Source of the DNA: Armatimonadota bacterium | GTDB taxonomy: Bacteria > Armatimonadota > UBA5829 > DTLH01 | Assembly: GCA_016190935.1 (NCBI GenBank) | Contig: JACPPP010000110.1 | Coordinates: 1 to 40,897 of the forward strand | Reading direction: 5' to 3' | Length of the DNA: 40,897 nt | Shown: positions 16,551 through 40,776 of the stretch, one piece after another | Layout of the letters: every line of letters begins with the position of its first letter | Numbering within the stretch: position 1 is the first letter of the stretch | Program-made: the position numbers and the translations under genes | The notes under the pieces: model-generated | Database searches by the model: none | Seen by the model: only the letters and a program-made list of their open reading frames with translations | Told to the model about the DNA's origin: nothing

Positions 16551-18649
16551 CAGAGCGCGGTGACCGGATACAGTTCGCCGGAAACGTGGTGGTTCAGGAG
16601 AACCAGCCGCTCGTGCTTCACGGCAAGTTCGTTCGGCACCCCAAGTATGGCTTCCAGTTCGAGGTCACGAGCATGGAGTTCGACCGGCAGATGGACGCCC
16701 GCGGGCTCGCCAACTATCTTGCGAACAATCCTGACATCAAGGGTATCGGCCCGGCAAAAGCAAGGATCATCGCTGAGCGGTTCGGCTCGGAGTTCGAGCA
16801 GCACCTAATCGATGAACCGGAGAAGATCGCGGACGCCGCGAAGGTGCCGATCTCGCTTATCGAGTCGCTGCGAGATCACTGGCTTGAGACGAGCAGTGTG
16901 AACCAGGCGATGACGGCGCTTGCCGCATACGGGCTCACACATCATCAGGTAACGAGGCTGGTGAAGAAGCTCGGCAACAATGCAGTCGGCATCATCGAAC
17001 GCGATCCCTATGTCATCGTCGGAGAGATCGACGGCTTTGGCTTCAAGCGGATCGACAAGATCGCTCGGCAGGTGGGCATCGCCAAGGACGAGCCGAGCCG
17101 TGTTCGCGCTGGAATTGTGTTCTGCGTCGATGATGCCCTGGATCAGGGCGACTGCTGGGTGGAGTACGAAGACCTGCTCGACCGGGCGAACGAGCTTCTT
17201 GTGATGGATTGCCTTGACAGCCGAGAGCAGATCGAGAAGCACCTGGACAATCTGATCGATGAGAAGTCCCTGACCTGCTACCCCGCAGACTGCCGGTTCC
17301 TCGTGGCGAAGCCGTTCATCCGGAGCACGGAAGAGGACCTGGCGCGTGTGTTCGCTGGCGGTGTAAAGCCCAGCCCGTGCCTTGGTGACAAGTCCGATCT
17401 GCAGACTGAGGTGAAACGTGTCGCGCCGCGACTCAATCCCAAGCAGCTTGACGCGGCCGTTAGTGCCGCCGCACACTCCATATCACTCATCTCCGGTGGT
17501 GCTGGATCCGGCAAGACATTCACCGTTGCCGCCATGACTCGGCTCTGTGACGAGCATGACCTGCGCGTAGTGCTCTGCGCGCCGACCGGCAAGGCCGCCA
17601 AACGAATGGAAGAGGCCACCGGGCGGGAAGCGTCAACGATCCATAGGCTGCTTGGTTTCAACGGCAAGACCTATGCGCGCGACTCGGAGAATCCTATCTC
17701 TGCCGACATGCTCATTGTCGACGAGGTTTCGATGGTCGATGTGGTTCTAGCCTGGCATCTGTTCCAGGCAATCGATCTTGACCGCACGGCCGTTGTTCTC
17801 GTTGGCGACCACAATCAACTTCCGCCTGTCGGCCCGGGCAACATCCTTCGAGACCTGATCGAGTCCAGAGTACTGCCGACAACAGTCCTCGACGATATAG
17901 TCAGACAGGCCGGTATCCTCAAAGAGAACAGCATCGCGATTCTCAAGGGCGAAGTGCCAAAGACTCCGCAGCGCGATACCTCCGCGCGGGGCGCATGGTA
18001 CGTCGCTGATCAGCATACCGATGCGGAACGAGTCCAGCGGTTCGTTCTCGACCTGTTCGAGCACACTCTCAACGAGAAGCTGGGCTTTGACATCCTGCGA
18101 GACGTACAGCTTCTGACTCCAACGCATAAGGGCCCGCTCGGCACAGTCGAACTGAACACTAAGCTCCAGCGCCTCATCCAGCGGAAGCTCTGGAACTACG
18201 ACGCGCCGCCCGTTCAGACAGGCAGACGTCCTAAGCTGCTCGTCAATGACAAGGTCATTCAGACCCGGAACAACTACGACCTCGGAGTCATGAACGGCGC
18301 GATGGGTATTGTCCGCAGCGTTGGTCTCGACGGGTCGCTAACCATCGAGTTCGAGGACAAGACGGTCCACATCGAGGCCGGGGTACCGCAGCGCAGTGAC
18401 ATCCAGCTTGCCTACGCGCTCACCATTCACAAGTCCCAGGGGTCGGAGTTTCCCTGTTCGGTGGTCATCGCACACAAGTCGCACTCGTTTATGCACCATC
18501 GGAACCTGCTCTACACCGGAGTGACCCGAGCCTCTCAGACCGCCATCATCGTCGGCGACCACTGGGGAATCGCCAACTGCGCCAAGCGCGTGCAGGTGGA
18601 TGCGCGGAAGACGTTCCTATCACTCCTGTTGAACAGGGGTGCCCAATGA
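16457..18649 (+). CDS. RecD/RecD2-like SF1 helicase
   Basis: Start MPTATTEHTRIRGEVERVFF; HhH region, Walker A SGGAGSGKTFT, VDEVSMVD, LTIHKSQGSEF, TGVTRASQ. Confidence 0.92.
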   Translation: MPTATTEHTRIRGEVERVFFSSANFSAGRFITERGDRIQFAGNVVVQENQPLVLHGKFVRHPKYGFQFEVTSMEFDRQMDARGLANYLANNPDIKGIGPAKARIIAERFGSEFEQHLIDEPEKIADAAKVPISLIESLRDHWLETSSVNQAMTALAAYGLTHHQVTRLVKKLGNNAVGIIERDPYVIVGEIDGFGFKRIDKIARQVGIAKDEPSRVRAGIVFCVDDALDQGDCWVEYEDLLDRANELLVMDCLDSREQIEKHLDNLIDEKSLTCYPADCRFLVAKPFIRSTEEDLARVFAGGVKPSPCLGDKSDLQTEVKRVAPRLNPKQLDAAVSAAAHSISLISGGAGSGKTFTVAAMTRLCDEHDLRVVLCAPTGKAAKRMEEATGREASTIHRLLGFNGKTYARDSENPISADMLIVDEVSMVDVVLAWHLFQAIDLDRTAVVLVGDHNQLPPVGPGNILRDLIESRVLPTTVLDDIVRQAGILKENSIAILKGEVPKTPQRDTSARGAWYVADQHTDAERVQRFVLDLFEHTLNEKLGFDILRDVQLLTPTHKGPLGTVELNTKLQRLIQRKLWNYDAPPVQTGRRPKLLVNDKVIQTRNNYDLGVMNGAMGIVRSVGLDGSLTIEFEDKTVHIEAGVPQRSDIQLAYALTIHKSQGSEFPCSVVIAHKSHSFMHHRNLLYTGVTRASQTAIIVGDHWGIANCAKRVQVDARKTFLSLLLNRGAQ

Positions 18650-19209
18650 ACACGATCCAGGCAATTGAGACTCAGTACAACGGCTACAGATTCCGCAGCA
18701 GGCTGGAAGCACGATGGGCGGTGTTCTTTGACAGCCTCGGCGTCCCCTACCTCTACGAGCCTGAGGGGTTCGAGCTTGGCGACGGAGTCAGGTACCTCCC
18801 GGATTTCTGGCTGCCTGATCAGCATTGTTGGGTGGAGATAAAGCCTCCCGGCGAGTGGGACTATCACCTTGAATGCGATCTCCTCGCCGAGCGGTCCGAC
18901 TGCCAACTGTTACTCTACATAACGGGTAACCCCTGGCCAGGGGAGTATGGAATCGTGCCATACCCGGCCACAAGCGAACTACACAGTAGTTCGGCTTGGG
19001 TCTTTGCCCTGGGGCGCAAGAGTGATCGCGAGCTGTGGATATGCAACGACGATGTCGGCGCGGAATGCCTGAACCCCATCGCTCTTGAGGACGAGAAATA
19101 CCCTTCGGCAAATGCTCCACGGCTCATCGGCGCGTACAGGGCGGCCCGTCGGGCGCGCTTTGAGTTCGGTGAGCGGCGGCCGAGATACCGGGGGTGGCCA
19201 AATGGATAG
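18646..19209 (+). CDS. PD-(D/E)XK-like endonuclease
   Basis: 187 aa; YRFRSRLEARWAVFFDSLGVPYLYEPE...YLPDFWLPDQHCWVEIKP. Confidence 0.68.
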   Translation: MNTIQAIETQYNGYRFRSRLEARWAVFFDSLGVPYLYEPEGFELGDGVRYLPDFWLPDQHCWVEIKPPGEWDYHLECDLLAERSDCQLLLYITGNPWPGEYGIVPYPATSELHSSSAWVFALGRKSDRELWICNDDVGAECLNPIALEDEKYPSANAPRLIGAYRAARRARFEFGERRPRYRGWPNG

Positions 19210-21829
19210 GAACACTCCGGAGGCCATGGTCTACGATCTGATACCGGACGAACTCAAAGCACTTCGGCAGTGGGTCTGCTACCGCATCGAGGATCGCAAT
19301 GGCATTCCCACCAAGATACCATACCGAACGGACAAAGTCGGACGCGGTAACGCCAAGACCAATGATCCGGCGACCTGGCATACTTTCGATGAGGTACTGG
19401 AAGCGGCCGCCAAGCCCGCAAACAGGTTCGACGGCATAGGGTTCGTACTATCTGAGTCCGACCCTTATGTGTTCGTGGATCTCGACCATGTGGTGAACGA
19501 CGGTGAGATGGAGCCCTGGGCGCTTGAGATGATCGGGCGCATTGGTTCCTACACGGAGTTCAGCCGGTCGGGAACGGGCATCCACATCGTCACGCGAGCA
19601 AAGAAACCCGGACCCAGGTGCCGGACACACAGCAGGCCGCAGTTCGAGATATACGACGACGTGCGGCTCGTCGTGTTTACGGGCAGGCTGTGGCCCGGCT
19701 CGCCAACCGAGATCAACGGCGCTCAGGAGGCAGTGAGCGAGATTTACTTCGACGTGTTCGGTGAGAACCCCCAGAACGTCCCGCCGAAGGAGAGCACAAA
19801 AAACGTCCGGCCGGTCGGAAAGTCCGATCCGGCGCTCATCGAGGAAGCCTTGTCCGCGACCAACGGAGAGAAGTTTGGGCGGCTGTGGAACGGGAACATC
19901 GGGGAGTACAACGGCGATGCCAGCGCGGCGGACATGGCGCTCTGCTGCATGCTTGCGTACTGGACGGACAAAGACCCTGCCAGGATGGACAGGCTGTTCC
20001 GCGAGTCGGGACTGATGCGCGACAAGTGGGATGAATCGCGAGGCCCGAAAACATACGGACAGATCACGATTGACGCAGCCAACGGTATAGTCAAAGAGAC
20101 CTATGCCGACCACACAGGCAAACGGAAACGGCGCGCGAAGCGAGATGCCGGAGTAGCTAAGACGCAAACGCGCCCCGTTGAAGGTCTACCTGCCATCCGT
20201 GCCGACTGCCAGGACCTTCGCAGCGTGACAGGTCAGTGCTGGGAGGCCATCGCCAGTGCCAACAACCCTCCGAGGTATTTCCGGTATATCGGTCTTCCTT
20301 CCAGACTCGAAAAAGACGATGATGGGATGCTGGTCCCCAGGGAACTGACTCCCGACAGGCTGCGACACGAACTGGCTCGTGTGGCGAATTGGGTAAGCGG
20401 GGAGCAGGATGAATCGGCCAAGCCTCCAGTCGATGTCGTGAGGGACGTGCTGGCGACTCCCAATCCTCCGCTGCCGGTGCTGGCGCGTATCACGGACGTT
20501 CCTGTGTTCGCTCCGGATGGTTCGCTCTCAATGGCCGAGGGCTACCATGCCGCCGGGCAGACATATCGGATGTCGAGGGCCGGGCTGAAGATTCCCGACA
20601 TACCGTCTGCCCCATCGTCAGGCGAGGTCGATGCAGCGAAGAGCCTGATCCTCGATATGATCTCAGAGTTCCCGTTCGTGGATGAAGCCGACCGCGCGCA
20701 TGCCGTCGGACTCCTTCTTCTCCCATTCGTGCGAGACCTTATCGACGGGCCGACGCCCAACCATCTTGTCGAGGCTCCGCAGGCGGGCACGGGAAAAGGA
20801 CTGCTGGCCGATGTCCTGCTGACACCCGCCTGTGGCAAGCAGGTGTCGACTATTTCCGAGGCCAGGGACGATGACGAATGGCGAAAACGGATAACCGCGC
20901 AACTCCGCAGCGCGCGCACGGTGGTTCTCCTGGACAACGTCACGCGGCCGCTCAACTCCGGGGCACTGGCTTCCGCGCTTACGGCAACGGTCTGGGAGGA
21001 CCGGATACTGGGCAAGTCTGAGAACCTGCATATCCCCGTGCGCTGCGTCTGGGTGACGACTGCCAACAATCCCACCATGACAACGGAAATCGCCAGGCGA
21101 TGCATACGCATTCGGCTGGACGCAAAGGTGGACCGTCCGTGGTTTCGTGACGGGTTCAGGCAGAAGAAGCTTCGCGGTTGGGCGCTTGCTAACCGCGGCG
21201 AACTGGTGGGCGCTGCTCTTACGCTCGTCCAGGCATGGGTGTGCGCCGGTATGCCCGCCTCCGAGACCAAGCCGCTGGGTTCCTATGAACAATGGACCGC
21301 GATAGTCGGGGGGATACTGCAGCACGTGGGTGTACCCAGGTTCCTGTCGAACCTCCTTGAGTTCTACGAGCAGGCGGACATCGAGGGAACGATGTGGCGG
21401 CAACTGGTCGAGGCATGGTCGGAGAAGTTCGGTCAGGAGCGCGTGGGAGTGAACGACCTGTTTGACCTGGCTTTGGAACTGGACGTGTTCGACTTCGGCA
21501 AAGGCGGCGAGAGGTCGCAAAGGACTGCTTTTGGCCGACGGCTCAGTCGGCAGCGTGATCGTGTGATAGGCGAAAATAGGATAATCGCTGCGGGGAAATC
21601 CAAGCGCGCGAGTCAGTGGATGCTGGTTCCTACAAGCGATCTGTTTTCCGGGAGGGTGAACATAGAGAACATCGGTGAACATTCCCCCTCTTCCCCTCAT
21701 GCGCCAGCGCACACACATGCATGCGCACATGCATGTGTAGACGAGGGTGAGAATGTTCACTCAGGTTCACTATGTTCACCCGACGAGTCTGCTCCGGCTT
21801 CGTCCATGCCGGGCTATGAGGAGTTCTGA
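19202..21829 (+). CDS. PrimPol-like primase/helicase
   Basis: Start MDRNTPEAMVYDLIPDELKALRQWVCYR; AEP-like core (VFVDLDHVV; SRSGTGIHIV), C-terminal P-loop segment VEAPQAGTGKGLLADVLLTPA. Confidence 0.82.
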   Translation: MDRNTPEAMVYDLIPDELKALRQWVCYRIEDRNGIPTKIPYRTDKVGRGNAKTNDPATWHTFDEVLEAAAKPANRFDGIGFVLSESDPYVFVDLDHVVNDGEMEPWALEMIGRIGSYTEFSRSGTGIHIVTRAKKPGPRCRTHSRPQFEIYDDVRLVVFTGRLWPGSPTEINGAQEAVSEIYFDVFGENPQNVPPKESTKNVRPVGKSDPALIEEALSATNGEKFGRLWNGNIGEYNGDASAADMALCCMLAYWTDKDPARMDRLFRESGLMRDKWDESRGPKTYGQITIDAANGIVKETYADHTGKRKRRAKRDAGVAKTQTRPVEGLPAIRADCQDLRSVTGQCWEAIASANNPPRYFRYIGLPSRLEKDDDGMLVPRELTPDRLRHELARVANWVSGEQDESAKPPVDVVRDVLATPNPPLPVLARITDVPVFAPDGSLSMAEGYHAAGQTYRMSRAGLKIPDIPSAPSSGEVDAAKSLILDMISEFPFVDEADRAHAVGLLLLPFVRDLIDGPTPNHLVEAPQAGTGKGLLADVLLTPACGKQVSTISEARDDDEWRKRITAQLRSARTVVLLDNVTRPLNSGALASALTATVWEDRILGKSENLHIPVRCVWVTTANNPTMTTEIARRCIRIRLDAKVDRPWFRDGFRQKKLRGWALANRGELVGAALTLVQAWVCAGMPASETKPLGSYEQWTAIVGGILQHVGVPRFLSNLLEFYEQADIEGTMWRQLVEAWSEKFGQERVGVNDLFDLALELDVFDFGKGGERSQRTAFGRRLSRQRDRVIGENRIIAAGKSKRASQWMLVPTSDLFSGRVNIENIGEHSPSSPHAPAHTHACAHACVDEGENVHSGSLCSPDESAPASSMPGYEEF
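21654..21781. repeat. Long inverted repeat with iteron-like half sites and central hairpin (candidate replication origin)
   Basis: Arms 21654-21684 and 21751-21781 match 27/31 as inverted copies; central ACACATGCAT-GCGCAC-ATGCATGTGT hairpin. Confidence 0.6.
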
Positions 21830-26579: not shown

Positions 26580-28100
26580 TTGAACAACACCAACTCGGAA
26601 GCTCAAGAGTCCATGGAACAGAACGCTGCATACGGAATTGTGATCCCCGCGCTGGCGGCCGCCGCCGCGCTTGACTCATCCACGTTCAGCAGCATCAATG
26701 CCAACGACGCGATCCCAGCGAATTGGGATGACCGGGCCAGGAAAGCCTGGGAGTATTACGTCGAGGAGCCGCTGGTGAAGAACTGCGTGAACTCCTGGCG
26801 CACATTCGCCGTGGGAGACGAGATCAAGATCACGAGCGACGATGACGCAGTCAAGAGCGAAGCCAATGAGCTTGCCGACCGCCTCGGTGTCTCCGAGTTC
26901 GTGAAAGACATGATCCTCCAGCTTCTGGTCAAGGGCGATGCTGTCGGGTTCAAACGCTACACCAAAAACGGCAAGGACATCGAGGAAGTCACCTGCGTCA
27001 ACCCGATCTCGGTCAAGGTGAAATACGCGCAGGGACAGCTCGTCGAAGTTCGGCAGTATCCTGAAGACAGTCCAACGGCCGGAGAGGGACTTGAGCTGCC
27101 GGTCGAACAGACGCTGCACCTGAAATGGGATGCTCCCGAGTTCTCGCCGCGCGGCAACTCGCTCGTGCTGCCTGCGTTTCAGTCCATCGAACTGCTCCGG
27201 GATTACCGGCGCGCCGAACAAGCCATAGCCAAACGCTGGGCTACGCCATTCCGGCTGCTCAAGGTCGGAGGCGCGTTCGGTCAGAAGATGGTGATGCCCG
27301 ACCAGAAGATGCTTGAGCAGGTCCGCGACATGATCAACAAGATGGACATGAAGAGCGGTCTGGTCGTGCCGTTCTACGTGACTGTCGAGACCCACGGCAC
27401 GGAAGGCCAGGTCCTCAACGTCGAGGACAAGGTCAAAGAGGTCAAGGAAGACATCGTCGTTGCGCTGGGGCTATCGCGTTCTCTTGTCACAGGCGACGGT
27501 CCCAACTTCGCAACAGCGTCGGTCAGCATGCAGAAGATGCTCATCATGATCCGGGAGATAAAGCACGCCGCGCGCACCATTCTCGAATGGATATACGACG
27601 ACTGGCGGGAGCTTGCCGGGCACGCGGGCAAGAGCATCCAGTTCCTCTTCAACGACCTCGACCCGACCGATGCGGTTGATTTCAAGAAGCTCCTCATAGA
27701 GCTATACGACCGCAAGCTGATAAGCCGCTCGTCCCTCCAGCTCAAGATGGACCTCGACCCGGATATCGAGGAGGCCAACCGGCAGAACGAATGCAAGTCC
27801 GTCGATCTGCTCGATGAGAAACAGGTCAAGCCCATCGTCGATATGGTCGTGGCCGGAATCATGAGTGTCGAGACCGCTCAAGAAATGCTTGGTCTTGACC
27901 CGGCGAAGAACCCGGCAGGTTCCAGGTCGGAGGCGGCGTGGGCAGGATTATTCAGTCACGGCGGTCATAGCGGAGAGGTCTGTGACTCCTGCGCATACTT
28001 CGGTGAAGATGACAATCGCTGCAGAGTTACTCAGGCTGAGGTGGCCTTCGATTCCCCGGCGTGCCGGTTCCTCCAGCTCAGGAAGGTCGAGAGCAAGTGA
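26580..28100 (+). CDS. Portal protein
   Basis: 506 aa; location after terminase and portal-like pattern (VPFYVTVETHGTEGQVLNVEDKVKEVKEDIVVALGLSRSLVTGDGPNFATASVSMQ). Confidence 0.82.
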   Translation: MNNTNSEAQESMEQNAAYGIVIPALAAAAALDSSTFSSINANDAIPANWDDRARKAWEYYVEEPLVKNCVNSWRTFAVGDEIKITSDDDAVKSEANELADRLGVSEFVKDMILQLLVKGDAVGFKRYTKNGKDIEEVTCVNPISVKVKYAQGQLVEVRQYPEDSPTAGEGLELPVEQTLHLKWDAPEFSPRGNSLVLPAFQSIELLRDYRRAEQAIAKRWATPFRLLKVGGAFGQKMVMPDQKMLEQVRDMINKMDMKSGLVVPFYVTVETHGTEGQVLNVEDKVKEVKEDIVVALGLSRSLVTGDGPNFATASVSMQKMLIMIREIKHAARTILEWIYDDWRELAGHAGKSIQFLFNDLDPTDAVDFKKLLIELYDRKLISRSSLQLKMDLDPDIEEANRQNECKSVDLLDEKQVKPIVDMVVAGIMSVETAQEMLGLDPAKNPAGSRSEAAWAGLFSHGGHSGEVCDSCAYFGEDDNRCRVTQAEVAFDSPACRFLQLRKVESK

Positions 28101-31100
28101 ATCTGTCTTCCCCGATGATGTGCGCTGTCGCGGACCTCGACTGGCAGGCCAGGGCGATACGCGAGGCGACTGACAAGAGCCTCATGGCGCGCGACATGTA
28201 TGCCGAACAGGTGGCGTTCCAGCTTACGCAGTCGCTCAAGACCGCGCAGGAGCACGTCCACAAAGCGCTTCTGGGCTACAAGGATGTCGGCTCGCTGCCT
28301 GAGAACAAGCTCGCGGCGGTCAATGGTCTTGAGAAGCTGGACGCGCAAATCCAAGAAGCGATGCGCGCCCTTCGCAAGGGCCAGTCCCTGATGTTCCGCA
28401 AGGCAAGCCGCGCGTCCTTCCGCTCCGGCGTCTATCGCGGGATAGAAGAGTTCGCGACTGCACAAATGCCATTCTACAAAGACCTTACACCAGACGAGAT
28501 CGACAAGGTCACGACGTCGGTGTTCACGCTCATCGACACTGACGCCCTGGACTTCATGGCCAACTACAACCTGGTCCTGGTGGGCGATGTGCACCAGGAG
28601 CTTGCGAGCGGCATCAAACGCACCATCCTTTCCGGGATCACCACAGGCAAGAACGCCCGCGACATCGTTCGAGACATGGGCAGCGTCATCGAGGACAAGG
28701 AGTCCTTCCGGCACGCCGGTACAAAGGTGTTCTCCAAAGCTCAGTACCGGATCGAGATGATAGCGCGCACAGAGGTGCTGCGCGCGCACAACCAGGGGCG
28801 AATCAAGTTCCACCAGCAGGTGGGGGTCACGAAGCTCGAATGGATGACCATGGAGGACGAGCGTGTGTGCCCGGTCTGCGGTGGGCTTGATGGCAAGGTG
28901 TTCGACACCGACCATTTCCCCAGTCAGCCCGCGCATCCAAACTGCCGATGCACGAGTGTTGTCGCGTGGCCGTTAGTCATCTGCGGCGGGGAACTCGGGG
29001 CGACGGCCGCTGTGGGGCAGAGCGCATGCATACTGCCCCCGCAGGCAATACACGACCAGGCAAAGCAGCAGGCCGAGGAAGAGAAGAAACTCAAGGGCGC
29101 ATTTGGGTCCGGTCAGATGGCGGATCTGTCGGGGCTTACGGTGAAGCAGCTCCAGACTCTCGCCAAGGGCAACGGCATTGGGGTTGCCCGCACCAAGACC
29201 GACTTCATCAAGCTCCTCGACGCGGCAGAGCCGGGGATCGGACATGCCGACCTCTCCGGCGCGGCGCTGCAGGCAAAGATCAAGCAATTCAATATCGCGG
29301 CGCTGCGTAGCAAAGACGACCTCACGAAACTGCTCGCCGAGAAGCAGGCCGTCATCAAGCAGGCAAAGGCCCTGGAGGAAGCCGCGAAGAGCGCAGCGCC
29401 TCAGACCGATCTCTCCAGTCTTACCGTGACTCAGCTCAAGGACATGGCCAAGCAGCACGGCGTGTCTCTGAACCTCACGAAGTCCGATGTCATCGAGATG
29501 CTGGACGCGCTTGAGCCGCACATAGACCATTACAACTACTCCGGCAAGACCCTGATCGCCGCCAAGCAGAAGTACGGGATCCCGCCACTCAAGAACAAGC
29601 AGCAGCTCGTGAAAGCCCTGGAAAAAGCGGCGGGCAAGCAGATGGCTGATCAGGTCAAGCAGCAGGCTCTGGACGTGGCGAAGACCGAGGCTCTGAAGAA
29701 AGCCGAGCTTGCCATAAAGGATGCCACAGCGCAGGTGGTGATGCCGTCGTCTCCCGCGCAGTATTCATCGTTCCTCGATTCGGTGAAAGCCGTCGAAGGT
29801 GAACTTGCTAAGGACTCAGGGCTGCCCGCATCGGTTCTTCAAGAGCACGCAAAGGAAGTCGCCGTGAAGAAGCTGGCGTTCCAGCAACAGGTTGCGGCGA
29901 TGAAGTCCGGAGAACTCAAAGACCTAGCGAAGCAGACCAAGGTCACGCACTGGCAGTGGGCCACGAAAGATGAACTGACAACTCTGTTCAGCGAAACCGA
30001 TCCGGGCAAGATTGCGGCGGCCAAAGCAGGCATCGAAGCAAAGCACGCGAAGTGGGCCGAAAAGCACTTGGGGAAGTCCGGCAAGCCCGTGGCGAAGCTG
30101 CCGAGCCCGCCGCCGACTCATCACGCCGTTGAGCACATAACACCGGCGGCCCCCGCATTCACCAAGAAAGGCTCGGAGTTTGACGCTGCCGATGATGCAT
30201 GGAAGTCTGAGGGCAAGCCCGAGAAGTTCAAGTATGAAGGCAAGGCCAAAGTCGGCGGGGCTCATGAGAAGGAGTTCTGGATCGACGAGAACGGCGACAA
30301 GTGGCTATTCAAGCCGGTCGGTAAAGGTAGTGACGACTTCATAGCCCACGGCGAGGAGGCCGCTTACAGGTTGGGCAGGCTCATCGACCCTGACGCCGTG
30401 GAAGTCAGGACAATCCGTATGAACGGTCGCACCGGCTCGATCCAGAAATGGCGCAATGATCTGGCAGCGAAATATGACTTCTCCAGTTTTGATGTAGCCG
30501 ATCTCTCTGCAGATGAGATAGCGCAGGTCCAGCGCGAGCACGTCCTTGACTGGCTTATCTCAAACCATGACGGCCACGCCAAGCAGTTCCTCCGGGCGAA
30601 GAACGGCAAGGTCTACGGCATCGACAAGGGCCAGCTATTCAAGTTCCTGGGTTCGGACAAGCTCTCCGTAGACTATCACCCCAATGGGGTCTGCGGAGAA
30701 AGTGAACCTTTCTACAACACTCTCTTCCGCGCGGCAAAGCAGGGTAAGGTGACGGTCGATCCGTCGACCACTCTGCGCTACATTCGCGAAGTGGAGCGCA
30801 TATCGGACGACGACTACCTCGGACTGCTGCGGCCTTACGTCGAAGGCAAGTTCGGAAGCGACGAGGCCGGTAAGCGGGCGTTCTACGAACTGGCTCTGGC
30901 GCGGAAGCACAACCTGCGCCGGGACTTCGAAGAGTTCTATTCGGATGTCCTCGGAAAGAAGAGGTTCGCATTCGACGACGCGGCAGATATCCCGGCCAAA
31001 GGTCGGATCGGGAAGGCAGAAGAGAAGATCATTGAAGATGCCCGCGTTCTCGGCTGGCAGGGCAAGGCGCTTCCGATAGACGAGGATGACATAGAGGACC

Positions 31101-32674
31101 AGAACGCGCTCATCTTCACCGAGACGGCGAAAGGCCAGCAGCGCACGGTCATCAAGCTCAAGGTCAGGCCGGAGGCAGAGGCAAAGATACTGGCCAAGCT
31201 CCGCAAGGCCACAAAGCAGGTCAGCAAGGTCGGGGAGCGCCTGCCGGAAGACGACTTCGCCGCTGATATCCTCGATGCCGCGAAGAGCGTGAATCACCAC
31301 GCGGGTGATGGCAAGTACAACCAGGCCAAGATTGATAAGGCCGCCGGACACATCAAGGCTCTGAGGCAGCTTGCGAAATCCGATGACCCCGACATCCGTG
31401 AGATGGCCGAGACCTACATCGACTGGGTGGACAGAGTCCAGCAGGCCGCGATTCAAGGCAAGTCTATACCTGAGCGCTTCGAGGGTTATCTGAAGAAGGT
31501 CGTCACCAAGGCCAAGAAGACCGATTCGGACTTCACGGTTCGTAAGACAAAGGTGCTGCTCGAAAAGCGTAGCGTCAGCAAGGGTGACTTATCTGTCGAA
31601 AGCGATGCCGCCGATCTGGACTCCATGTTCGGCGGACGCCACCTATCCGATGGCGAGCAGTATGAGATAGACTTCGGTGACGGCGTCCGCGCGGTCTACC
31701 GCCCGTGGTCATCGAAGAACCTGTATGCGCATTCCGGGGAGTTCGAGATGGTTGTTCCCGACCGGCCCGATGCAAAGAGCCTGGACAGGGCGCTGGAGCG
31801 CATGGAGAAGATAGGGCTGAAGGCTAACGTTGCCACCCCCGAGGATGCGGAGATCCTCTATCTCCACAAGCAGGCATATCTGACAAAGGCCGACAAGTCC
31901 CCGGAATACACGCAGATGGTCTCGTCCCTTGACCAGCGCAACGCGTCCAAGACCGAGCGTGTGCAAAGCATGCGCGCGTTCTGGGAGAAGCGGCTCGGGG
32001 TTTCGGATATCACGAAGACGCCCGGTTATGACCCGGTCGGTGAGTATCAGCTCGGGTTCAAGGACCAGAAGATCACGGGCGGCTACCGCCACCAGTATCG
32101 GTTCGATATCTCTGATGCGGATATGGAGCGCGATATGGCAGGCTACAGCCTACACCACAGCCTGACGAACAGCTCCAGCATGAGCGGGTTCCTCGATGCG
32201 GCTCTGGAGAACAACGGCACCATGATAAGCACGGTCGAGAAGCTCAGGGTCGGGGTGCAGCCGCGCGGCATGTCGCCGGAATCGGACATGAGAAGCGGCG
32301 GCGCGTCTTATGTGTTTACACGAATCAAGAAGTCCCCACTCTCCGGCGCTTCCGGTGAGAACGGGCTCTACTTCAAGAAGCGACTTCTGCGGCGCATGGA
32401 TGCTATTAGCTACAGTCACGACGCCTTTGGCAAGGTTACCGAAGACTATGTGCCCACGCACCGGGGCAGCGATCCCAAGACCTGGAAGACCTATGCGCGC
32501 AACTCAAGCAACGAGACTATCCTCAAACACTCCGTGACGCTGCTTGATAACCTGGAAGCGATAGTGGTGGGAAGCGAGTCCGAGCGGACCAAGGTGCTCG
32601 CGATATTCAAGAAGCACGGCATATCCAAGCTGACCGACGGCCGCAAGGTCGAGGAAATCGTTCTGGTGAGGTGA
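28097..32674 (+). CDS. Giant head-morphogenesis fusion protein (Mu gpF-like + SAP/HeH-like repeats + HipA/PI-kinase-like + unknown C-terminal domain)
   Basis: About 1525 aa from GTG overlapping the portal stop; gpF-like ARTEVLRAHNQGRIKF...ERVCPVCGGLDGKVF...PAHPNCRC; SAP-like LTVKQLQTLAKGNGI; kinase-like KWLFKP...SNHDGHAKQFL...GIDKGQLFKF. Confidence 0.75.
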   Translation: MNLSSPMMCAVADLDWQARAIREATDKSLMARDMYAEQVAFQLTQSLKTAQEHVHKALLGYKDVGSLPENKLAAVNGLEKLDAQIQEAMRALRKGQSLMFRKASRASFRSGVYRGIEEFATAQMPFYKDLTPDEIDKVTTSVFTLIDTDALDFMANYNLVLVGDVHQELASGIKRTILSGITTGKNARDIVRDMGSVIEDKESFRHAGTKVFSKAQYRIEMIARTEVLRAHNQGRIKFHQQVGVTKLEWMTMEDERVCPVCGGLDGKVFDTDHFPSQPAHPNCRCTSVVAWPLVICGGELGATAAVGQSACILPPQAIHDQAKQQAEEEKKLKGAFGSGQMADLSGLTVKQLQTLAKGNGIGVARTKTDFIKLLDAAEPGIGHADLSGAALQAKIKQFNIAALRSKDDLTKLLAEKQAVIKQAKALEEAAKSAAPQTDLSSLTVTQLKDMAKQHGVSLNLTKSDVIEMLDALEPHIDHYNYSGKTLIAAKQKYGIPPLKNKQQLVKALEKAAGKQMADQVKQQALDVAKTEALKKAELAIKDATAQVVMPSSPAQYSSFLDSVKAVEGELAKDSGLPASVLQEHAKEVAVKKLAFQQQVAAMKSGELKDLAKQTKVTHWQWATKDELTTLFSETDPGKIAAAKAGIEAKHAKWAEKHLGKSGKPVAKLPSPPPTHHAVEHITPAAPAFTKKGSEFDAADDAWKSEGKPEKFKYEGKAKVGGAHEKEFWIDENGDKWLFKPVGKGSDDFIAHGEEAAYRLGRLIDPDAVEVRTIRMNGRTGSIQKWRNDLAAKYDFSSFDVADLSADEIAQVQREHVLDWLISNHDGHAKQFLRAKNGKVYGIDKGQLFKFLGSDKLSVDYHPNGVCGESEPFYNTLFRAAKQGKVTVDPSTTLRYIREVERISDDDYLGLLRPYVEGKFGSDEAGKRAFYELALARKHNLRRDFEEFYSDVLGKKRFAFDDAADIPAKGRIGKAEEKIIEDARVLGWQGKALPIDEDDIEDQNALIFTETAKGQQRTVIKLKVRPEAEAKILAKLRKATKQVSKVGERLPEDDFAADILDAAKSVNHHAGDGKYNQAKIDKAAGHIKALRQLAKSDDPDIREMAETYIDWVDRVQQAAIQGKSIPERFEGYLKKVVTKAKKTDSDFTVRKTKVLLEKRSVSKGDLSVESDAADLDSMFGGRHLSDGEQYEIDFGDGVRAVYRPWSSKNLYAHSGEFEMVVPDRPDAKSLDRALERMEKIGLKANVATPEDAEILYLHKQAYLTKADKSPEYTQMVSSLDQRNASKTERVQSMRAFWEKRLGVSDITKTPGYDPVGEYQLGFKDQKITGGYRHQYRFDISDADMERDMAGYSLHHSLTNSSSMSGFLDAALENNGTMISTVEKLRVGVQPRGMSPESDMRSGGASYVFTRIKKSPLSGASGENGLYFKKRLLRRMDAISYSHDAFGKVTEDYVPTHRGSDPKTWKTYARNSSNETILKHSVTLLDNLEAIVVGSESERTKVLAIFKKHGISKLTDGRKVEEIVLVR

Positions 32675-33147: not shown

Positions 33148-33485
33148 GGCTTCGATACATGATTGAACACGCGCTTCGGGATCGGGACATGAACCCGCGC
33201 TATGAACCCATCGGCGTTTGGGTTCAGGGTTCCGGCCCAGGGCTGGATATCGTGATGGAATACCTGCCGGGCAATGAGGACGCCCAAGAGGAAGCGGACT
33301 GGGTCATCAACCGCTTGGTGGAGAACGATATCAGGTCCCTGCCGGGTGACTTCCTGGAGTATCACCGGTCCACGATGTCCCCGTATCGCGGCATGCGCGG
33401 AGAGATAGTGGAGACCGAGGAGTATGCGACGGCGGAGGAGTGCGCCGCACGTGTGCTTTCGGGTCTACCAAGACCTCCTACTTAG
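33144..33485 (+). CDS. Protein of unknown function
   Basis: 113 aa from ATG at 33144 overlapping the previous stop; MRLRYMIEHALRDRDMNPRYEPIGV. Confidence 0.55.
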   Translation: MRLRYMIEHALRDRDMNPRYEPIGVWVQGSGPGLDIVMEYLPGNEDAQEEADWVINRLVENDIRSLPGDFLEYHRSTMSPYRGMRGEIVETEEYATAEECAARVLSGLPRPPT

Positions 33486-34446
33486 TTTTGTGCTGCCTGA
33501 CATTCAGCGCCTTCCACAATATCCCAGGGTGGATGCTTATCCGTTCCTGCATCTCATGGTCGGCGGTAAGCAGGTCCGGTCGCACATCGCCGTGATCCAG
33601 AATGAGGTCGAGGAATTCTGTCTCGTTGCTCTGAAAGGGAAGGACAGCGCTCAAACCCGCGCGGCACTCGTCGACGAGGCTTTGTGCCCACGTTCTTCGA
33701 TCCGCCACATGCGATAGGGCATCGCTGCGAAGCACCGGTACTAACTGGTTCTCCAAGTCGCCCAGATCGAAACCGACATCATCACTCTTCACAGTGCGCC
33801 AATCCTTCCGGTTGATTGCGCCGTAGACGACGAAGGCCAGTCGCAGCTTGTTGGCATCCAACAAGCCGCATTGAAGAAGGCGGTGTGAGTCGTAAAGGTC
33901 TCTCGCCGCTCGTCGAGACAACAGCGCCGCGAACTTGCCTGCCGTGATCTCATGCACGTCCAGCATGGGTATGCCCGAAGCGGAGTAACTGCCTATTGGA
34001 AACGAGTCCCGGAGCGTTACAGGCCACAAGGGAACGCGGAGCATGAAGTTCAGGTCAAGCTGCAGGATCCCAGTCGGCGTCACCGCGCTCTCATACTGCA
34101 GCCGGAACTTCCCACCAGCATGTTCCGAAGGACTCCTGGTGATGACATAACCTTCGCGTCCGCATATCGCGGCAATAGCTCGTTCAAGTAAAGGTCTATC
34201 CTCTTCCATCGACGCACGGTCTTGGGAACCAACATAGTTCAGGTCGATATCGACTGAGAGGCGAGGAACCTGCAGCAGGAAGAGATTGAGCGCAGTTCCG
34301 CCTTTCAATGCCAGCTTCCCCTTGAGTTGGGGATGTGAGTTCAGCATCTCCAGCAAGGAAAGCAGATGGATAGCTTTCTCTAGTATCTCCGGCCTGAACC
34401 CCGTGGACTCGGACTCAGCAATCAAGCGATCTCTCGAAATCCTCAT
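33478..34446 (-). CDS. abiEii: AbiEii-family nucleotidyltransferase toxin
   Basis: 322 aa; LKGGTALNLFLLQVPRLSVDIDLNYVG is the AbiEii NTase signature. Confidence 0.88.
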   Translation of the reverse strand: MRISRDRLIAESESTGFRPEILEKAIHLLSLLEMLNSHPQLKGKLALKGGTALNLFLLQVPRLSVDIDLNYVGSQDRASMEEDRPLLERAIAAICGREGYVITRSPSEHAGGKFRLQYESAVTPTGILQLDLNFMLRVPLWPVTLRDSFPIGSYSASGIPMLDVHEITAGKFAALLSRRAARDLYDSHRLLQCGLLDANKLRLAFVVYGAINRKDWRTVKSDDVGFDLGDLENQLVPVLRSDALSHVADRRTWAQSLVDECRAGLSAVLPFQSNETEFLDLILDHGDVRPDLLTADHEMQERISIHPGILWKALNVRQHKTK

Positions 34447-35237
34447 TGCTCGTCCCAGTGCCTTTCGACTATGAAGTCCGGCACAACCAGGTTCCAGTCC
34501 TGGAATAACTTACTGTTGCCCTTGTGTGACCGCTCAAGGTAATGAGGTGACTTCGGACACCGGGCCTTGAGGCGTTCCAGGTGAGAAGGATCGACCATCA
34601 ACTGCTCGCGATGCTGATCCAGGAAGAATCCAACCTTGGCAGCGGTAGTGGCATTGTCCAATAGCTCGACGTATTCAACTATCTTGTCCAGATGGTAATA
34701 CTCTACCATCTCCAGTGATCGCCAGACTTCCTCCCAGCCGCCGGAGAGTTCCGGTCTCTGCAACATGTCTACCATGGTCCGCTCCAGGCTTGTCACGCGC
34801 AAGGTTTCACCATGAGATTCGGCATTGTCCACGGCAAATGCCTCCTGGCCTGTGGTAAGCAGAGAGCGAGGAAACAACACTGCCTTGAACGTTTGTCCCT
34901 CGAAGCCGAAGGAATGAACGCGTGAACGAGAGCAGCAGACGTAGTCGTTGCGCAGTGTGTAACCCTTGCCGTGGAATTGAAGCGCTGTGTGATATGCGAG
35001 AACTGCGTCAGGAGCCATTTTCGTGCATATCAGATAAGGGTCGGCGACTACAGGTATACCGGGAGGCGCGCTGAGGTAAAGCCCTTTTCGCACTTGCTTG
35101 ACCCGGCCGGTGTGAAGATAGTACTTGAGCAAGGCTCTCCGTCCGGTCGTCTTGCCTGGACGTTCGCGTGAGTAGAATTCCTCGAAGTCCCGCGAATCGA
35201 ATACCGTCTTTCTGTTCAGAAACATCTGAGCCTTCAT
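34443..35237 (-). CDS. abiEi: AbiEi-family antitoxin
   Basis: 264 aa; N-terminal wHTH-like RRALLKYYLHTGRVKQVRKGLYLSAPPG; ATGA overlap with the toxin gene. Confidence 0.82.
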   Translation of the reverse strand: MKAQMFLNRKTVFDSRDFEEFYSRERPGKTTGRRALLKYYLHTGRVKQVRKGLYLSAPPGIPVVADPYLICTKMAPDAVLAYHTALQFHGKGYTLRNDYVCCSRSRVHSFGFEGQTFKAVLFPRSLLTTGQEAFAVDNAESHGETLRVTSLERTMVDMLQRPELSGGWEEVWRSLEMVEYYHLDKIVEYVELLDNATTAAKVGFFLDQHREQLMVDPSHLERLKARCPKSPHYLERSHKGNSKLFQDWNLVVPDFIVERHWDEQ

Positions 35238-35629: not shown

Positions 35630-38600
35630 TTGATGCAGCTTTTCGCCACGGACAATGACCGGCTTGTCTTTCTTCTGGAGACGGACGCCTCGCGTCACCT
35701 GGAGCGGTTGCTCGCTCAGGCGGCAGAGCTCGTCACCGAGGAACTGCCGGAAGACGAGCGTCCGAAATACATAACCAACTACATCGGCTCCAAGCAGAAG
35801 CTCATCGACTGGATCTGGAAGCACACTCCCGAAGGGGTGGATTCGGTCATAGACGCGTTCTCCGGCTCCGGCGTCGTGGCCTACATGTACAAGACCAAGG
35901 GCCTGCGGGTGCTGGCCAACGACCGGCTTCGTTACTCCTACCACGCTGCCCGCGCAATCGTCGAGAACTCAAGCGTCCGGATAAGCGAGGACGAGCTTGC
36001 CGCTCTGCTTGCGGATAATCCAAAGGCTGGGACCTTTGTCCGAGACAACTTCAAAGGGATATTCTTCGCAAGCGGAGTTCACGGTGTCATCGACCAGATC
36101 CGGGCCAGCGCCGACAAGCTGGAGGGCTACAAGAAGGACATCGCGCTCTTCGCGCTCGGTAAGACTTGCATGTCCGGCAAGGGCGGCTTCGGCCACTTCT
36201 CATCCTCGACCGATTACGGAAAGCGCCAGGACACGCCAGAGGAGTTTCGGCAGCGCTTCGCCGATAACATCGCGCGCATCAATGCGCTCATATTCGACAA
36301 CGGCAAGGAGTGCAAGGCATCGAACAAGGACATCAACGAAGTCCTGTCGGAAGCCAAGGTCGACCTTGCCTACTTCGATCCGCCCTATGCCACCGAGTTC
36401 TCCACAACCAACTACGAGAAGAGCTACCACTTCGTCGAAGGTCTCATGACCTACTGGGACGGTCTCACGCTCGTTGAGGATTCCAAGACTCACCACTACG
36501 AGACCGACCACAAGACGGTGACCAAGGCCAACGCGCAGGAGTTCTTCTCGACGTTTCTCACGAACGCGAAGCATATCCCGAACTGGCTCATCTCTTACCG
36601 CGACCATGCCTACCCAAACGAAGGCGAGATGAAGCAGATCATCTCGGCAAGCGGCATGTCGAGCCGGATGCAGTCTCACCAGCACAGGTATCACATCTCA
36701 TCGAAGCATTCCGAGAACTCAGTCGCGATGGAGCATCTCTTCGTGTGCTCTCGCTCAAAGGAGATGAAGAAGGCCGCGAGCCTCTGTCCTGTCTGTTCTC
36801 AGCAGGCAATGGAGGCCGAGGCCATTTGGGACGAGACGGAAAACGAAATCCGCTACCGCGTCCGCGATCCAGAACAGTTCGACCCCGACAGTTTCAGGCG
36901 GAAACCACTCGACGGCGTGAACGGCGTTGCGATCATCGTTGGCAGGCTGAAGAAGGAGAGCGTTCCACAGGGGCGTGACCCGCAGGCGATGGTCCTGCAG
37001 GCATACCGGTTCGCCAAGAAGACGGACAGCAACCCCGAAGGCTGGACAACCGAGAAAGCCAAGGACTGGATAAAGCAGCATGAGCCTGAGGCGTCCAGCG
37101 CAGAGATTCGGATCGAAGAGAACATGCAGGCGCTGGCCCACGCGCCGCTGTCGGACGACCTTGACCTGCTCTGCTGCCAGGCCGGAATGGACCCGGTCAA
37201 GGTGACGGGCTACATGGGCAACAAGTTCGTGATGCTCGGCTGGATAGAGCGGCAGGTCCCCAAGGACGCAAAGACCGTCGTTGACGCGTTCTCCGGCGGG
37301 GCGAATGTCGCCTACCATCTCAAGCGCAAAGGGATGAAGGTCATCGCAAATGACCTGCTGCTCTTCCCATATCATATCGCACGGGCGGTCGTTGAGAACT
37401 CCCGCGAAGTCTTGACTGACGAGGATATAGAGAGGATTCTTTCTCCCAACCCCAACGCGGGCACGTTCATCGTCGACAACTTCAGCGGTTACTACTACAC
37501 CAAGCGGGTGCTCTCCTGGCTTGACCAGGTGTGGGCTAACATCCAGAAGCTTTCCGGCTACAAGAAAGACCTAGCGCTGGGGGCGCTCGGAAACACGGTC
37601 AAGGCTAAGTCTCTCTACGGTCAGTTCCATCGCTCGAAGATCAACCTCAAAGGCGAACTCGGCACGGAAGCCGACGCGGAGATGGAAGCGGATGCTGGTG
37701 GGTTCAAGGAAAGCCAACTCACCAGCATTCCCATCTCCAGCATGGTGGAGAGCTTCAAGCGGTACGCGAACCAGCTTAACCGGCTGGTCTTCGACAACGG
37801 CCAGGAGTGCAAGGCTTTCCATGGCGACGCGGTAGAGGCGGTGCGGAAGTACGGCGCGGACGTGCTGTATCTCGATCCACCCTACATAACGGAGTTCTCG
37901 AACAACGACTACGAGTATTCGTTGCACTTTGTCGAGGGCTTGATGAACCGCTGGGCGGACAAAGAGCTTCTCGACGACAACCGGCGCAGCTACAAGTCGC
38001 GGACTCACTTCGACCGCGAGAGCATCCGCGCTCTTATCGAGAACCTGGCTTCGGAGGCGCGGGGCAAGTACAAGACTGTGATCATGTCCTACCGGGACCA
38101 CGCGTTCCCGACCGAAAAGGAAATCCGCGACATCTTCGCTGAGCGTTTCGGGCAGGTTCGGGTCAAGGGCATGGATGTCGAGTATGGCATCGTCCTCGGC
38201 AAGGGGGGTGAGGGCAAGAACGGGCGCGAGCTTCTATTCGTGGCGTCCAGTTCCAGGCAGGCTCCCAGGTCAATCGCTTCGGCTGGTGTCTCAAACTGCC
38301 ACACTGCTATCCCCGTGGAAGTGAGTCTGAACAACAAGGACGGACTCTCGTCCGAGGCGATTGACCTCAACCCCAACGCTGGCGATCCACAATTCAGCTT
38401 CATCATGTGTCGCGCTGGCACGAACAAGAACGGCGACCACTTCACCCCGGACGAACTCGCCGCACGCTACACCACGGCCATAAACAGGAAGATCGACCTC
38501 AAACACTCCCAGGAACTCACGGACATCGTGGGCGGCATAGTCGCGGCCGAGTTTGTCGAGGACGAGACCGGCGGGCGCGTCGAGTGCGTAGGCGAGCTTT

Positions 38601-39523
38601 ATGCGGCGGAAGCCCCAACCGCCGCGCTCGCCTACAAGCTCATGAAGAAGGGCATCATCTCCCAGGTCTCGATGGAGTGTGACTACGAGTCCGGAGAGTG
38701 CTCGATTTGCGGGAAGACTGTGAGCAACAAGAACGACTACTGCGTGCATCTGAGAAAGTCCAAGGGCTCGGAGTATCAGGGCAAGCCGGTATTCGAGATA
38801 CTGCACGGCGTCACATTCACCGGCCTTGGGCTTCTGGACCGCAAAGGAGCCGACGATAACGCGCGGATAACTCAGGTCGCCTCGGACAAGACGGGGCAGG
38901 CAGAAGATACAAACTCAGGAGGCACCTCATTGGAAGACGTTAAGAACGAACACGAGACCGACGAGCAGCGTGAAGAAGCTGCAAAGAAGAAAGACGCTCC
39001 CGGCGGCGGGGCCGCTCCTCCGGTCGACGACAAGACCCGGGTGAAGGAGCTTGAAGCGGAGAACAAGGACCTCAAGAACCAGGTTCTGGAGCTTCAGAAG
39101 CAGGTCCAGGAACTCGAGGCGACAAGCAAAGCCGCCGCGAACAAGGCGCGTGCGCAGAAGCTTCTGAGGAAGCTGGAGAAGGCGGGAATGTCCTTTGCCT
39201 CTGACGAGGACAAGGACCAAGAACTGAACCGTCTTGCCGGACTTTCGGACGATGCGTTCGCCGCGACCGAGGCTGCCTATGACAAGGCCATCCAGTCAAA
39301 GTCCGAGTGTCCGAATGCCGGGAAGCAGGACGGGGACAAGGATGCCGGTGATAGGGAGAATTCTGCTTCCGCTTCGACGGATCGACAGATGCGCTCGCAC
39401 GCGGACGTGCGACCCGCCGATGTCGACGACAAGAAGCTCTCCCTTGAGGACAAGCTTCGCGACGGATTCATGACTGCCTACCGTGAGCGAGTCGGTCTCG
39501 CTGGCGCGGGCAAGAGCAACTAA
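35630..39523 (+). CDS. Two DNA adenine methylase domains fused to an XkdF-like segment, prohead protease and scaffold
   Basis: 1297 aa; two D12-class MTase cores (DAFSGSGVVAY/YFDPPYATEF and DAFSGGANVAY/YLDPPYITEF), DGVNGVAIIVG...GWTTEKAKDWIKQH, protease-like LKHSQELTDIVGGIVAAEF...ISQVSMEC, C-terminal coiled coil. Confidence 0.85.
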   Translation: MMQLFATDNDRLVFLLETDASRHLERLLAQAAELVTEELPEDERPKYITNYIGSKQKLIDWIWKHTPEGVDSVIDAFSGSGVVAYMYKTKGLRVLANDRLRYSYHAARAIVENSSVRISEDELAALLADNPKAGTFVRDNFKGIFFASGVHGVIDQIRASADKLEGYKKDIALFALGKTCMSGKGGFGHFSSSTDYGKRQDTPEEFRQRFADNIARINALIFDNGKECKASNKDINEVLSEAKVDLAYFDPPYATEFSTTNYEKSYHFVEGLMTYWDGLTLVEDSKTHHYETDHKTVTKANAQEFFSTFLTNAKHIPNWLISYRDHAYPNEGEMKQIISASGMSSRMQSHQHRYHISSKHSENSVAMEHLFVCSRSKEMKKAASLCPVCSQQAMEAEAIWDETENEIRYRVRDPEQFDPDSFRRKPLDGVNGVAIIVGRLKKESVPQGRDPQAMVLQAYRFAKKTDSNPEGWTTEKAKDWIKQHEPEASSAEIRIEENMQALAHAPLSDDLDLLCCQAGMDPVKVTGYMGNKFVMLGWIERQVPKDAKTVVDAFSGGANVAYHLKRKGMKVIANDLLLFPYHIARAVVENSREVLTDEDIERILSPNPNAGTFIVDNFSGYYYTKRVLSWLDQVWANIQKLSGYKKDLALGALGNTVKAKSLYGQFHRSKINLKGELGTEADAEMEADAGGFKESQLTSIPISSMVESFKRYANQLNRLVFDNGQECKAFHGDAVEAVRKYGADVLYLDPPYITEFSNNDYEYSLHFVEGLMNRWADKELLDDNRRSYKSRTHFDRESIRALIENLASEARGKYKTVIMSYRDHAFPTEKEIRDIFAERFGQVRVKGMDVEYGIVLGKGGEGKNGRELLFVASSSRQAPRSIASAGVSNCHTAIPVEVSLNNKDGLSSEAIDLNPNAGDPQFSFIMCRAGTNKNGDHFTPDELAARYTTAINRKIDLKHSQELTDIVGGIVAAEFVEDETGGRVECVGELYAAEAPTAALAYKLMKKGIISQVSMECDYESGECSICGKTVSNKNDYCVHLRKSKGSEYQGKPVFEILHGVTFTGLGLLDRKGADDNARITQVASDKTGQAEDTNSGGTSLEDVKNEHETDEQREEAAKKKDAPGGGAAPPVDDKTRVKELEAENKDLKNQVLELQKQVQELEATSKAAANKARAQKLLRKLEKAGMSFASDEDKDQELNRLAGLSDDAFAATEAAYDKAIQSKSECPNAGKQDGDKDAGDRENSASASTDRQMRSHADVRPADVDDKKLSLEDKLRDGFMTAYRERVGLAGAGKSN

Positions 39524-39534
39524 GGAGGCGCAAC

Positions 39535-39897
39535 ATGGCATTTCTGAACCCCAACCATCGAGGGCTGGCCTACGGCGACGGCTACATGCAGGGCGCGGGA
39601 TCGTGTGGCCAGTTCGTGAAGCTGGTCGGCAATGATCTCTTCGCCGTGAACACCGACTCGCAGGACAAGAGCTTCGGCGTGCTCATCAAGGACTACAAGG
39701 CAGGCGATATGCCCGGCATCTTCTGCATGGGCGGCGTCTACGAGACCGACGTCTACGAGGGCACAATCAACGCCGGTGATGATCTCAAGGTCTCCGCAAA
39801 TGGCAAGCTCACAGCGGGTGTCGAGGAGGGCGACGATGTGGTCGCCAGGGCTATCTCAGTATCGAGCGGGACGCTGAAGTTCCGCCTGCTCATCTAA
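39535..39897 (+). CDS. DUF2190-like capsid decoration protein
   Basis: 120 aa between protease/scaffold and major capsid; FGVLIKDYKAGD... INAGDDLKVSANGKLTAG pattern. Confidence 0.72.
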   Translation: MAFLNPNHRGLAYGDGYMQGAGSCGQFVKLVGNDLFAVNTDSQDKSFGVLIKDYKAGDMPGIFCMGGVYETDVYEGTINAGDDLKVSANGKLTAGVEEGDDVVARAISVSSGTLKFRLLI

Positions 39898-39912: not shown

Positions 39913-40776
39913 TTGGAAGCAACCCAGCTCAACATTCACAGCCAAGAATACATGGAGACCATGGCCCGGCTCATGACCGAAGCTCTGGAATCCCCAGAGG
40001 GCATGCGCGCGCTCGCGGCGGCAATCGCCGATCCAATCGAGCAGGAGATCAAGCGCAAGGAGATAACCTCGCTTCTCCTCACGCAGCACACTCTGCCCAA
40101 GGGTGAGCGGCCGATCTACCAGAAGAAGCCGAAGGTCAAGGCTTACTGGATCAGCACGGAGGGTGAGGCGCGAGAGCAGGAACTCGGTCAGGACGAGGTC
40201 GAGTTCCCAACTAACCGAATCCACTCCACACCGATGGTGGACGTATCGGTGCTGAAGAACGGCAACATCGGCACCCTGATGGACATCCAGACATCTTCGG
40301 CGGACGAGATTCGCAAGGAGATCGACAAGAGAACACTCACGGTCCTCTCTGCGGCCGTGCCGGCCGCGAACACTATCGAGGTCACGGGCGGCAAGCTCAC
40401 CGACGATGCCTTGAACGAGGCCATCTCCATCATTGAGGACCTGGAACTCTCGGTCAAGTACATCGTGATGCGTGGCCGGCGGTTCAACGATATGCGCGAC
40501 TGGGATCTCGACCCGGAGACCCGGGCGGAACTCAGAACCAAAGGTGTCATCAAGAACTACGGCACCGGCGGCATTCTGCTTACCGCTTCCGCCAGCATGA
40601 CTGAGATTCTGTTGGTGCCGGACGATGAGATCGGCAAGATGCCGATTCGCGAATCACTCAAGACCGAGTCCATCGAGCAGAAGACCCGGTTCAAGACGGG
40701 CTGGCTCGTCTGGACGGAGCTTGGGCAGGGCGTCACCCGGCCCGAGATTCTCGCCAAGATCAGGATACTGCCGTAA
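39913..40776 (+). CDS. Major capsid protein (HK97-fold likely)
   Basis: 287 aa, after scaffold and decoration genes; predicted N-arm helix plus P/A-domain-like KYIVMRGRRFNDMRDWD. Confidence 0.75.
   Translation: MEATQLNIHSQEYMETMARLMTEALESPEGMRALAAAIADPIEQEIKRKEITSLLLTQHTLPKGERPIYQKKPKVKAYWISTEGEAREQELGQDEVEFPTNRIHSTPMVDVSVLKNGNIGTLMDIQTSSADEIRKEIDKRTLTVLSAAVPAANTIEVTGGKLTDDALNEAISIIEDLELSVKYIVMRGRRFNDMRDWDLDPETRAELRTKGVIKNYGTGGILLTASASMTEILLVPDDEIGKMPIRESLKTESIEQKTRFKTGWLVWTELGQGVTRPEILAKIRILP

Follow-up and report, generated by a model that had tools for sequence, protein, structure and literature searches.

The predicted temperate tailed phage integrated in the Armatimonadota contig JACPPP010000110.1 (the window, that is, the whole 40,897-nt stretch analysed) encodes one long polypeptide in which two DNA adenine methyltransferase (MTase) domains are joined to a putative prohead protease and a scaffold, a fusion conserved at dozens of independent loci. 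It is likely, if well short of certain, that a low-copy methylase-protease-scaffold chain joins the procapsid core via its scaffold tail and that the methylases modify the phage DNA; phages of this kind have built one or two methylases (here two) into their protease-scaffold polypeptide. The order of parts in the window is MTase 1-LINK-MTase 2-protease-coiled-coil scaffold, where LINK denotes residues about 386-515:

35633..39523, forward strand: MTase-MTase-prohead protease-scaffold fusion gene (open frame and homologues)
35762..36784, forward strand: MTase 1, D12-class N6-adenine MTase, residues 45-385 (PF02086, 95.8 bits)
35777, 35852 and 36374, forward strand: MTase 1 sequence motifs NYIGSK, DAFSGSG and FDPPY
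36785..37174, forward strand: LINK, a prohead-protease-associated domain, residues 386-515
37199..38269, forward strand: MTase 2, D12-class, residues 524-880 (PF02086, 72.6 bits; tandem alignment)
37205, 37283 and 37871, forward strand: MTase 2 sequence motifs TGYMGNK, DAFSGGA and LDPPY
38294..38320, forward strand: NCHTAIPVE motif, a candidate cleavage or docking peptide, conserved in the variable, disordered junction before the protease
38405..38884, forward strand: predicted prohead protease core, residues 926-1085 (invariant residues, AlphaFold2, Foldseek, phrog_3244 and phrog_18299)
38498, 38663 and 38699-38752, forward strand: protease motifs, His959 in LKHSQ, Ser1014 in QVSMEC and CxxC...CxxH
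38917..38922, forward strand: internal Shine-Dalgarno (SD) sequence AGGAGG, with a 7-nt spacer to the internal start
38930..39523, forward strand: scaffold domain and predicted separate 197-aa product from TTG 38930 (start and SD conservation; coiled-coil helix in the model)

The open reading frame (ORF) at 35630..39523 on the forward strand runs for 1297 codons and, on a reading-frame check, contains no stop. It opens with TTG 35630, followed directly by ATG 35633; because GGAG precedes the ATG, this codon is the more probable start. The initial annotation had described a single uninterrupted frame holding two adenine MTases, an "XkdF-like" segment (our LINK), a protease and a scaffold, and this description has held up: the frame is open, PF02086 matches and homologues confirm that the MTases, protease and scaffold share one polypeptide, the domain coordinates needed only small adjustments, and the His in LKHSQ, the Ser in ISQVSMEC, the CxxC...C..H cluster and the coiled-coil tail are all present.

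Could an assembly or frameshift error have joined separate genes? A few copies are indeed broken: L076, which has lost its DPPY, L082, and L102, in which the protease Ser is changed to Leu and a stop lies ahead of the scaffold. These visibly decaying or frameshifted copies are the only split homologues. Two scans of metagenomic viral contigs found the same fusion at some 80 distinct loci, of which many are complete; in stop-to-stop ORFs combined with domain searches it takes the form MTase 1-(LINK)-MTase 2-protease-scaffold (about 1170-1350 aa) or MTase 1-protease-scaffold (about 800 aa). A protease-scaffold profile run once against GTDB species genomes gave 58 loci, and the fusion stands at more than 50 genome loci, with one or two MTases and rarely none, in Armatimonadota, Desulfobacterota, Planctomycetota, Acidobacteriota, Calditrichota, Kiritimatiellota, Pseudomonadota and other phyla. 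The carriers include closed chromosomes, namely Desulfosarcina widdelii NZ_AP021875.1 (1288 aa), D. alkanivorans NZ_AP021874.1 (1288 aa, with a second copy of 802 aa) and Sulfidibacter corallicola NZ_CP071793.1 (819 aa, with an MTase-less copy of 425 aa). Since the architecture recurs in so many independent contigs and in closed chromosomes, a missed stop or assembly error is rejected, and an artefact deserves practically no credence: the conservation of the fusion polypeptide is confirmed. The search for the same fusion in other phages, which the initial annotation had suggested, was thus positive, and the outcome that it had named as fatal, homologues always encoded as separate ORFs, is the opposite of what is seen, as homologues are almost never split. 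Two of the chromosomes are useful for comparison, with paired prophages that carry zero and one methylase (NZ_CP071793.1; L144 and L148) or two and one (NZ_AP021874.1; L099 and L109). A search for further MTase-less relatives with L144 returned L144 alone.

The protease is recognized mainly by its fold. Its catalytic His959 and Ser1014 (H69 and S124 in the numbering of A1) are invariant in a 35-sequence alignment, in which the CxxC...CxxH of a zinc-finger-like insert is also invariant or nearly so. AlphaFold2 models the core with a predicted local distance difference test (pLDDT) score of 81-96; the protease-scaffold model, with a predicted template modelling (pTM) score of 0.44, does not predict the domain arrangement. 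Foldseek places herpesvirus assemblins at the top of the PDB (probability 0.99, E only 6e-3) and, in BFVD, ranks prohead proteases among the leading matches (E as low as 1e-16), with Bacillus phage G gp19 as the best of them. Sequence matches to the head maturation proteases phrog_3244 and phrog_18299 provide a weak link: scores for Pfam S78 (PF04586; 12.6 bits, cutoff 21) and the NCBIfam HK97 proheadase (TIGR01543; 16.8 bits, cutoff 59) fall below threshold, so the domain is filed by fold and position, as a predicted prohead protease of herpes-assemblin fold, and not as S78 or HK97. Among PDB sequences, the protease-scaffold part matched only zinc-finger and coiled-coil noise. The NCHTAIPVE motif of the preceding junction has equivalents in L102 (CHTSIPVE) and in the MTase-less L144 (CTTTVPVD).

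Position is the second criterion, and it is supplied by three genes of the head operon:

28061..32674, forward strand: MuF-type minor head protein, 1537 aa, upstream of the fusion (PF04233, 7.7e-17; synteny)
39535..39897, forward strand: small decoration-like head protein, directly downstream (phrog_673; synteny)
39913..40776, forward strand: major capsid protein (phrog_2522, 2e-86; synteny)

Among loci with enough flanking sequence, the capsid gene lies downstream in 92 of 92, the decoration-like gene in 86 of 92, and MuF lies upstream in 67 of 72. Within the operon, the place of the protease and scaffold is taken by the fusion.

The border between protease and scaffold carries a second signal. 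An SD match of at least 5 nt precedes an in-frame start codon there in 66 of 71 non-redundant loci (ATG in 50, GTG in 8, TTG in 8), with a full AGGAGG in 41; control windows of equal size from the same ORFs contain a match of at least 5 nt in 3.1% of cases and of 6 nt in 0.17%. The signal falls into one alignment column in 65 loci (the next best column has 5), and the Gly encoded at the SD is GGA in 63 of these 65, as compared with 14.7% of Gly codons in the same ORFs (binomial 6e-50, relatedness ignored). At the start position of SD-bearing loci, Val is GTG in 8 of 8 and Leu is TTG in 8 of 8, a codon that accounts for 8.5% of Leu codons. In three deep lineages (L085, L088 and L089) the signal persists but in a different frame, where it reads as E-D or E-A; the idea that changed SD spacing reflects a changed frame was rejected, as GGA is in frame in 63 of 66 loci and these three are the only exceptions. 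The codon choices indicate that selection at this border acts on nucleotides, as an internal start requires, and that the scaffold is apparently also made separately from it. Phage lambda, too, makes its scaffold from an in-frame internal start (C/Nu3). A nested scaffold start has been described in Mu and a Mu-like Pseudomonas phage (PMC4378225).

How might such a gene work? Two products would arise from it: an approximately 142-kDa MTase-LINK-MTase-protease-scaffold chain in modest amount and, from the in-phase internal start, which has counterparts in lambda C/Nu3 and Mu I/Z, the 197-aa scaffold (about 22 kDa) in excess. The shared C-terminal scaffold, which ends in a segment of the pattern DAGVRPxDVDDxxxSLED, would draw the full-length chain into the core of the procapsid; the protease would next cleave itself as well as the scaffold, and the methylases would remain within the new head or next to it; and these would modify the phage DNA at N6-adenine, enabling it to escape restriction.

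The two methylase domains exceed the PF02086 cutoff (22 bits) by a wide margin, share 36% identity (129 of 363 columns), and each retains an N-terminal xGxK motif together with DAFSG and DPPY; the initial annotation had already remarked on the two DPPYs. DPPY is retained throughout the intact distinct long ORFs of homologues. In comparisons with seven relatives, the ratio of nonsynonymous to synonymous substitution rates (dN/dS) is 0.05-0.10 for both domains, as low as for the protease, which indicates strong purifying selection; both are probably active adenine methylases, as judged by these sequence features. A model of the tandem shows folds like that of E. coli Dam (pTM 0.45, domain arrangement not predicted). 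Could the domains instead serve as DNA- or S-adenosylmethionine (AdoMet)-sensing modules linking the phage DNA to head maturation or packaging, with no modification at all? Through a tether to the protease, proteolysis could come under the control of DNA binding, and MTase copy number varies while the head module stays unchanged. In intact copies, however, neither DPPY nor the AdoMet-binding motif varies, as expected of catalysis rather than of binding alone, and the MTase-less homologue L144 has the same protease; such a role is improbable.

A stronger competitor to assembly into the procapsid has the methylases at work in the cytoplasm at a late stage of infection, either fused or autoproteolytically freed, on replicated DNA before it is packaged, with the fusion ensuring only late co-expression. 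Ordinary orphan phage MTases work in this way, survival inside a capsid would not be required, and both domains retain their catalytic motifs under strong purifying selection. Yet co-expression does not need a fusion to a procapsid component, maintained in many lineages, when separate genes suffice, and translation offers no release: neither ahead of the protease nor in the stretch from one MTase to the other is an internal start conserved (at most 3-4 loci, no shared column), so that freeing of the MTases by translation was rejected and proteolysis would have to do it. Action before packaging is a reasonable possibility that falls short of an even chance.

A more specific version of the procapsid proposal would retain the methylases in the virion and eject them with the DNA, so that the incoming genome is marked at once, in the manner of P1 Dar or T4 Alt proteins. 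Cargo tethered to a scaffold is placed inside the head by construction, and the MuF protein of the same phage also bears a C-terminal extension of about 1000 aa. Precedent exists in phage P1, whose anti-restriction Dar proteins are internal to the head and co-ejected, the N-terminus of DarA being cut by the prohead protease (PMC12810830), and polyvalent multidomain virion effectors commonly include adenine methylases (PMC5512222). On the other side, the 1297-aa protein has no helicase match, that is, no SNF2 partner as in DarB, and most scaffold and protease is normally removed before packaging. Ejection is tentative, with the odds against it; and a fully elaborated pathway, in which the methylases enter with the protease-scaffold, are freed by autoproteolysis, remain in the mature head and, once ejected, methylate the entering genome ahead of host restriction, is more doubtful still. 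What ejection, pre-packaging action and a non-catalytic role leave over would fall to a mixture or to something else.

Several points weigh against a procapsid route of any kind. Prohead proteases and scaffolds usually leave the head or are destroyed before packaging, and therefore the MTases could be lost too. Sequence shows the fusion and its conservation, the catalytic motifs, the protease fold, the internal start signal and the gene position, whereas product amounts, co-assembly, cleavage, methylation and its purpose are inferred. The S78 score lies under its cutoff, and the model singles out no third catalytic residue among the several invariant acidic and His residues of the 35-sequence alignment. 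Finally, the 71 loci used for the internal start are related, and their counts are not independent.

What is the LINK segment? It matched no Pfam, PHROG or NCBIfam model and nothing in isolated phages, but a LINK profile finds it N-terminal to S78 prohead proteases in L174 (7e-47), L177 (3e-22) and L175 (3e-4), and also matches L173 and L179. These phages are unrelated, and LINK is thus a recurring accessory domain of prohead proteases. The term "XkdF-like" was thus half right: the association with prohead proteases stands, whereas LINK as a protease in its own right was rejected, as it matches no protease family. In the window, MTase 1 lies ahead of LINK and MTase 2 between LINK and the protease, so that the protease is separated from its accessory domain. 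L102 (MTase 1-LINK-protease) and L125 (partial LINK-protease-scaffold) have no MTase 2, and many fusion relatives have no LINK. On a quick protease tree, MTase number must have changed no fewer than 7 times and LINK no fewer than 11; truncated or broken rows make these figures approximate. The ancestral order may have been LINK-protease-scaffold, with MTases added later; the tree cannot tell gain from loss.

Among known systems, lambda C/Nu3 and Mu I/Z are the closest in plan: a prohead protease with a C-terminal scaffold, an in-frame internal SD and start, and then decoration and major capsid genes. They differ in that their far shorter proteins have no methylases; the zinc-finger-like insert is a feature of the fusion, and no close sequence similarity to the lambda and Mu proteases was found. 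Bacillus phage G gp19, the nearest protease homologue in an isolated phage (33% identity), is a stand-alone 300-aa protein without a methylase. P1 DarA and DarB and the polyvalent virion proteins share an adenine methylase in head-associated proteins, with proposed protection at entry, and the Dar proteins depend on head morphogenesis; DarB, unlike the fusion, is a separate protein that carries a helicase and is joined to neither protease nor scaffold. Tandem type IIS MTases, such as M.FokI-like enzymes and that of Erysipelothrix phage phi1605, also have two D12 domains in one chain, and the C-terminal half of the phi1605 protein, which adjoins a type IIs endonuclease, is the closest relative among annotated phage proteins (about 31-37% identity). 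Both window domains align to positions about 380-630 of phrog_56, and neither matched a PDB sequence; as both resemble a C-terminal half only, recruitment of an intact M.FokI-type pair was rejected. No cognate endonuclease adjoins the fusion in the window, where its neighbours are MuF, small genes, AbiE, the decoration protein and the capsid protein.

PHROG 27806, a 798-aa "DNA methyltransferase", belongs to the same family: it matches residues 522-1289 at 1285 bits and MTase 1 at 540 bits. This is the single-MTase-protease-scaffold form, annotated by its MTase only, to which the window fusion adds a second MTase and LINK. Although such single-MTase sequences were already filed there, their composite nature seems to have gone unremarked, and no paper on an MTase-protease-scaffold fusion was found in the open-access literature. 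If the procapsid proposal is correct, a set of proteins annotated only as "DNA methyltransferase" are the missing protease and scaffold of these phages; the scaffold would serve as a delivery tag that places enzymes in the head, an encapsulation route unlike that of known packaged proteins; and DNA modification would be tied to capsid maturation, with a bearing on restriction evasion at entry. The series of zero, one and two methylases occurs in culturable, harmless bacteria, which makes the proposal testable; carriers that can be grown include Desulfosarcina alkanivorans PL12 (one tandem and one single copy), Desulfofustis glycolicus DSM 9705 and Ectothiorhodospira shaposhnikovii DSM 243.

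The interval that separates MuF from the fusion, 4-6604 bp long, is a hotspot for cargo, with many genes for defence: AbiEi/AbiEii in the window (33478-35237, reverse strand), L006 and L007; restriction-modification systems of BsuBI/PstI type in L101 and XhoI type in L112; a dGTPase in L094; and a 1600-aa helicase-nuclease like PDC-S37 in L027 and L071. The MuF protein (28061-32674; phrog_6577), whose unassigned C-terminal extension contains a Rho_N/SAP-like region and a weak match to HipA_C that stays below threshold, is possibly a second cargo protein. Elsewhere, the contig carries the host genes aspS and hisS together with a serine recombinase, a LexA-like repressor, a RecD2-like helicase and an NrS-1-type polymerase domain (6809-8191 and 12584-13243, reverse strand; 16397-21829, forward strand); this gene content points to an integrated temperate phage within a bacterial contig, which ends just past the capsid gene.

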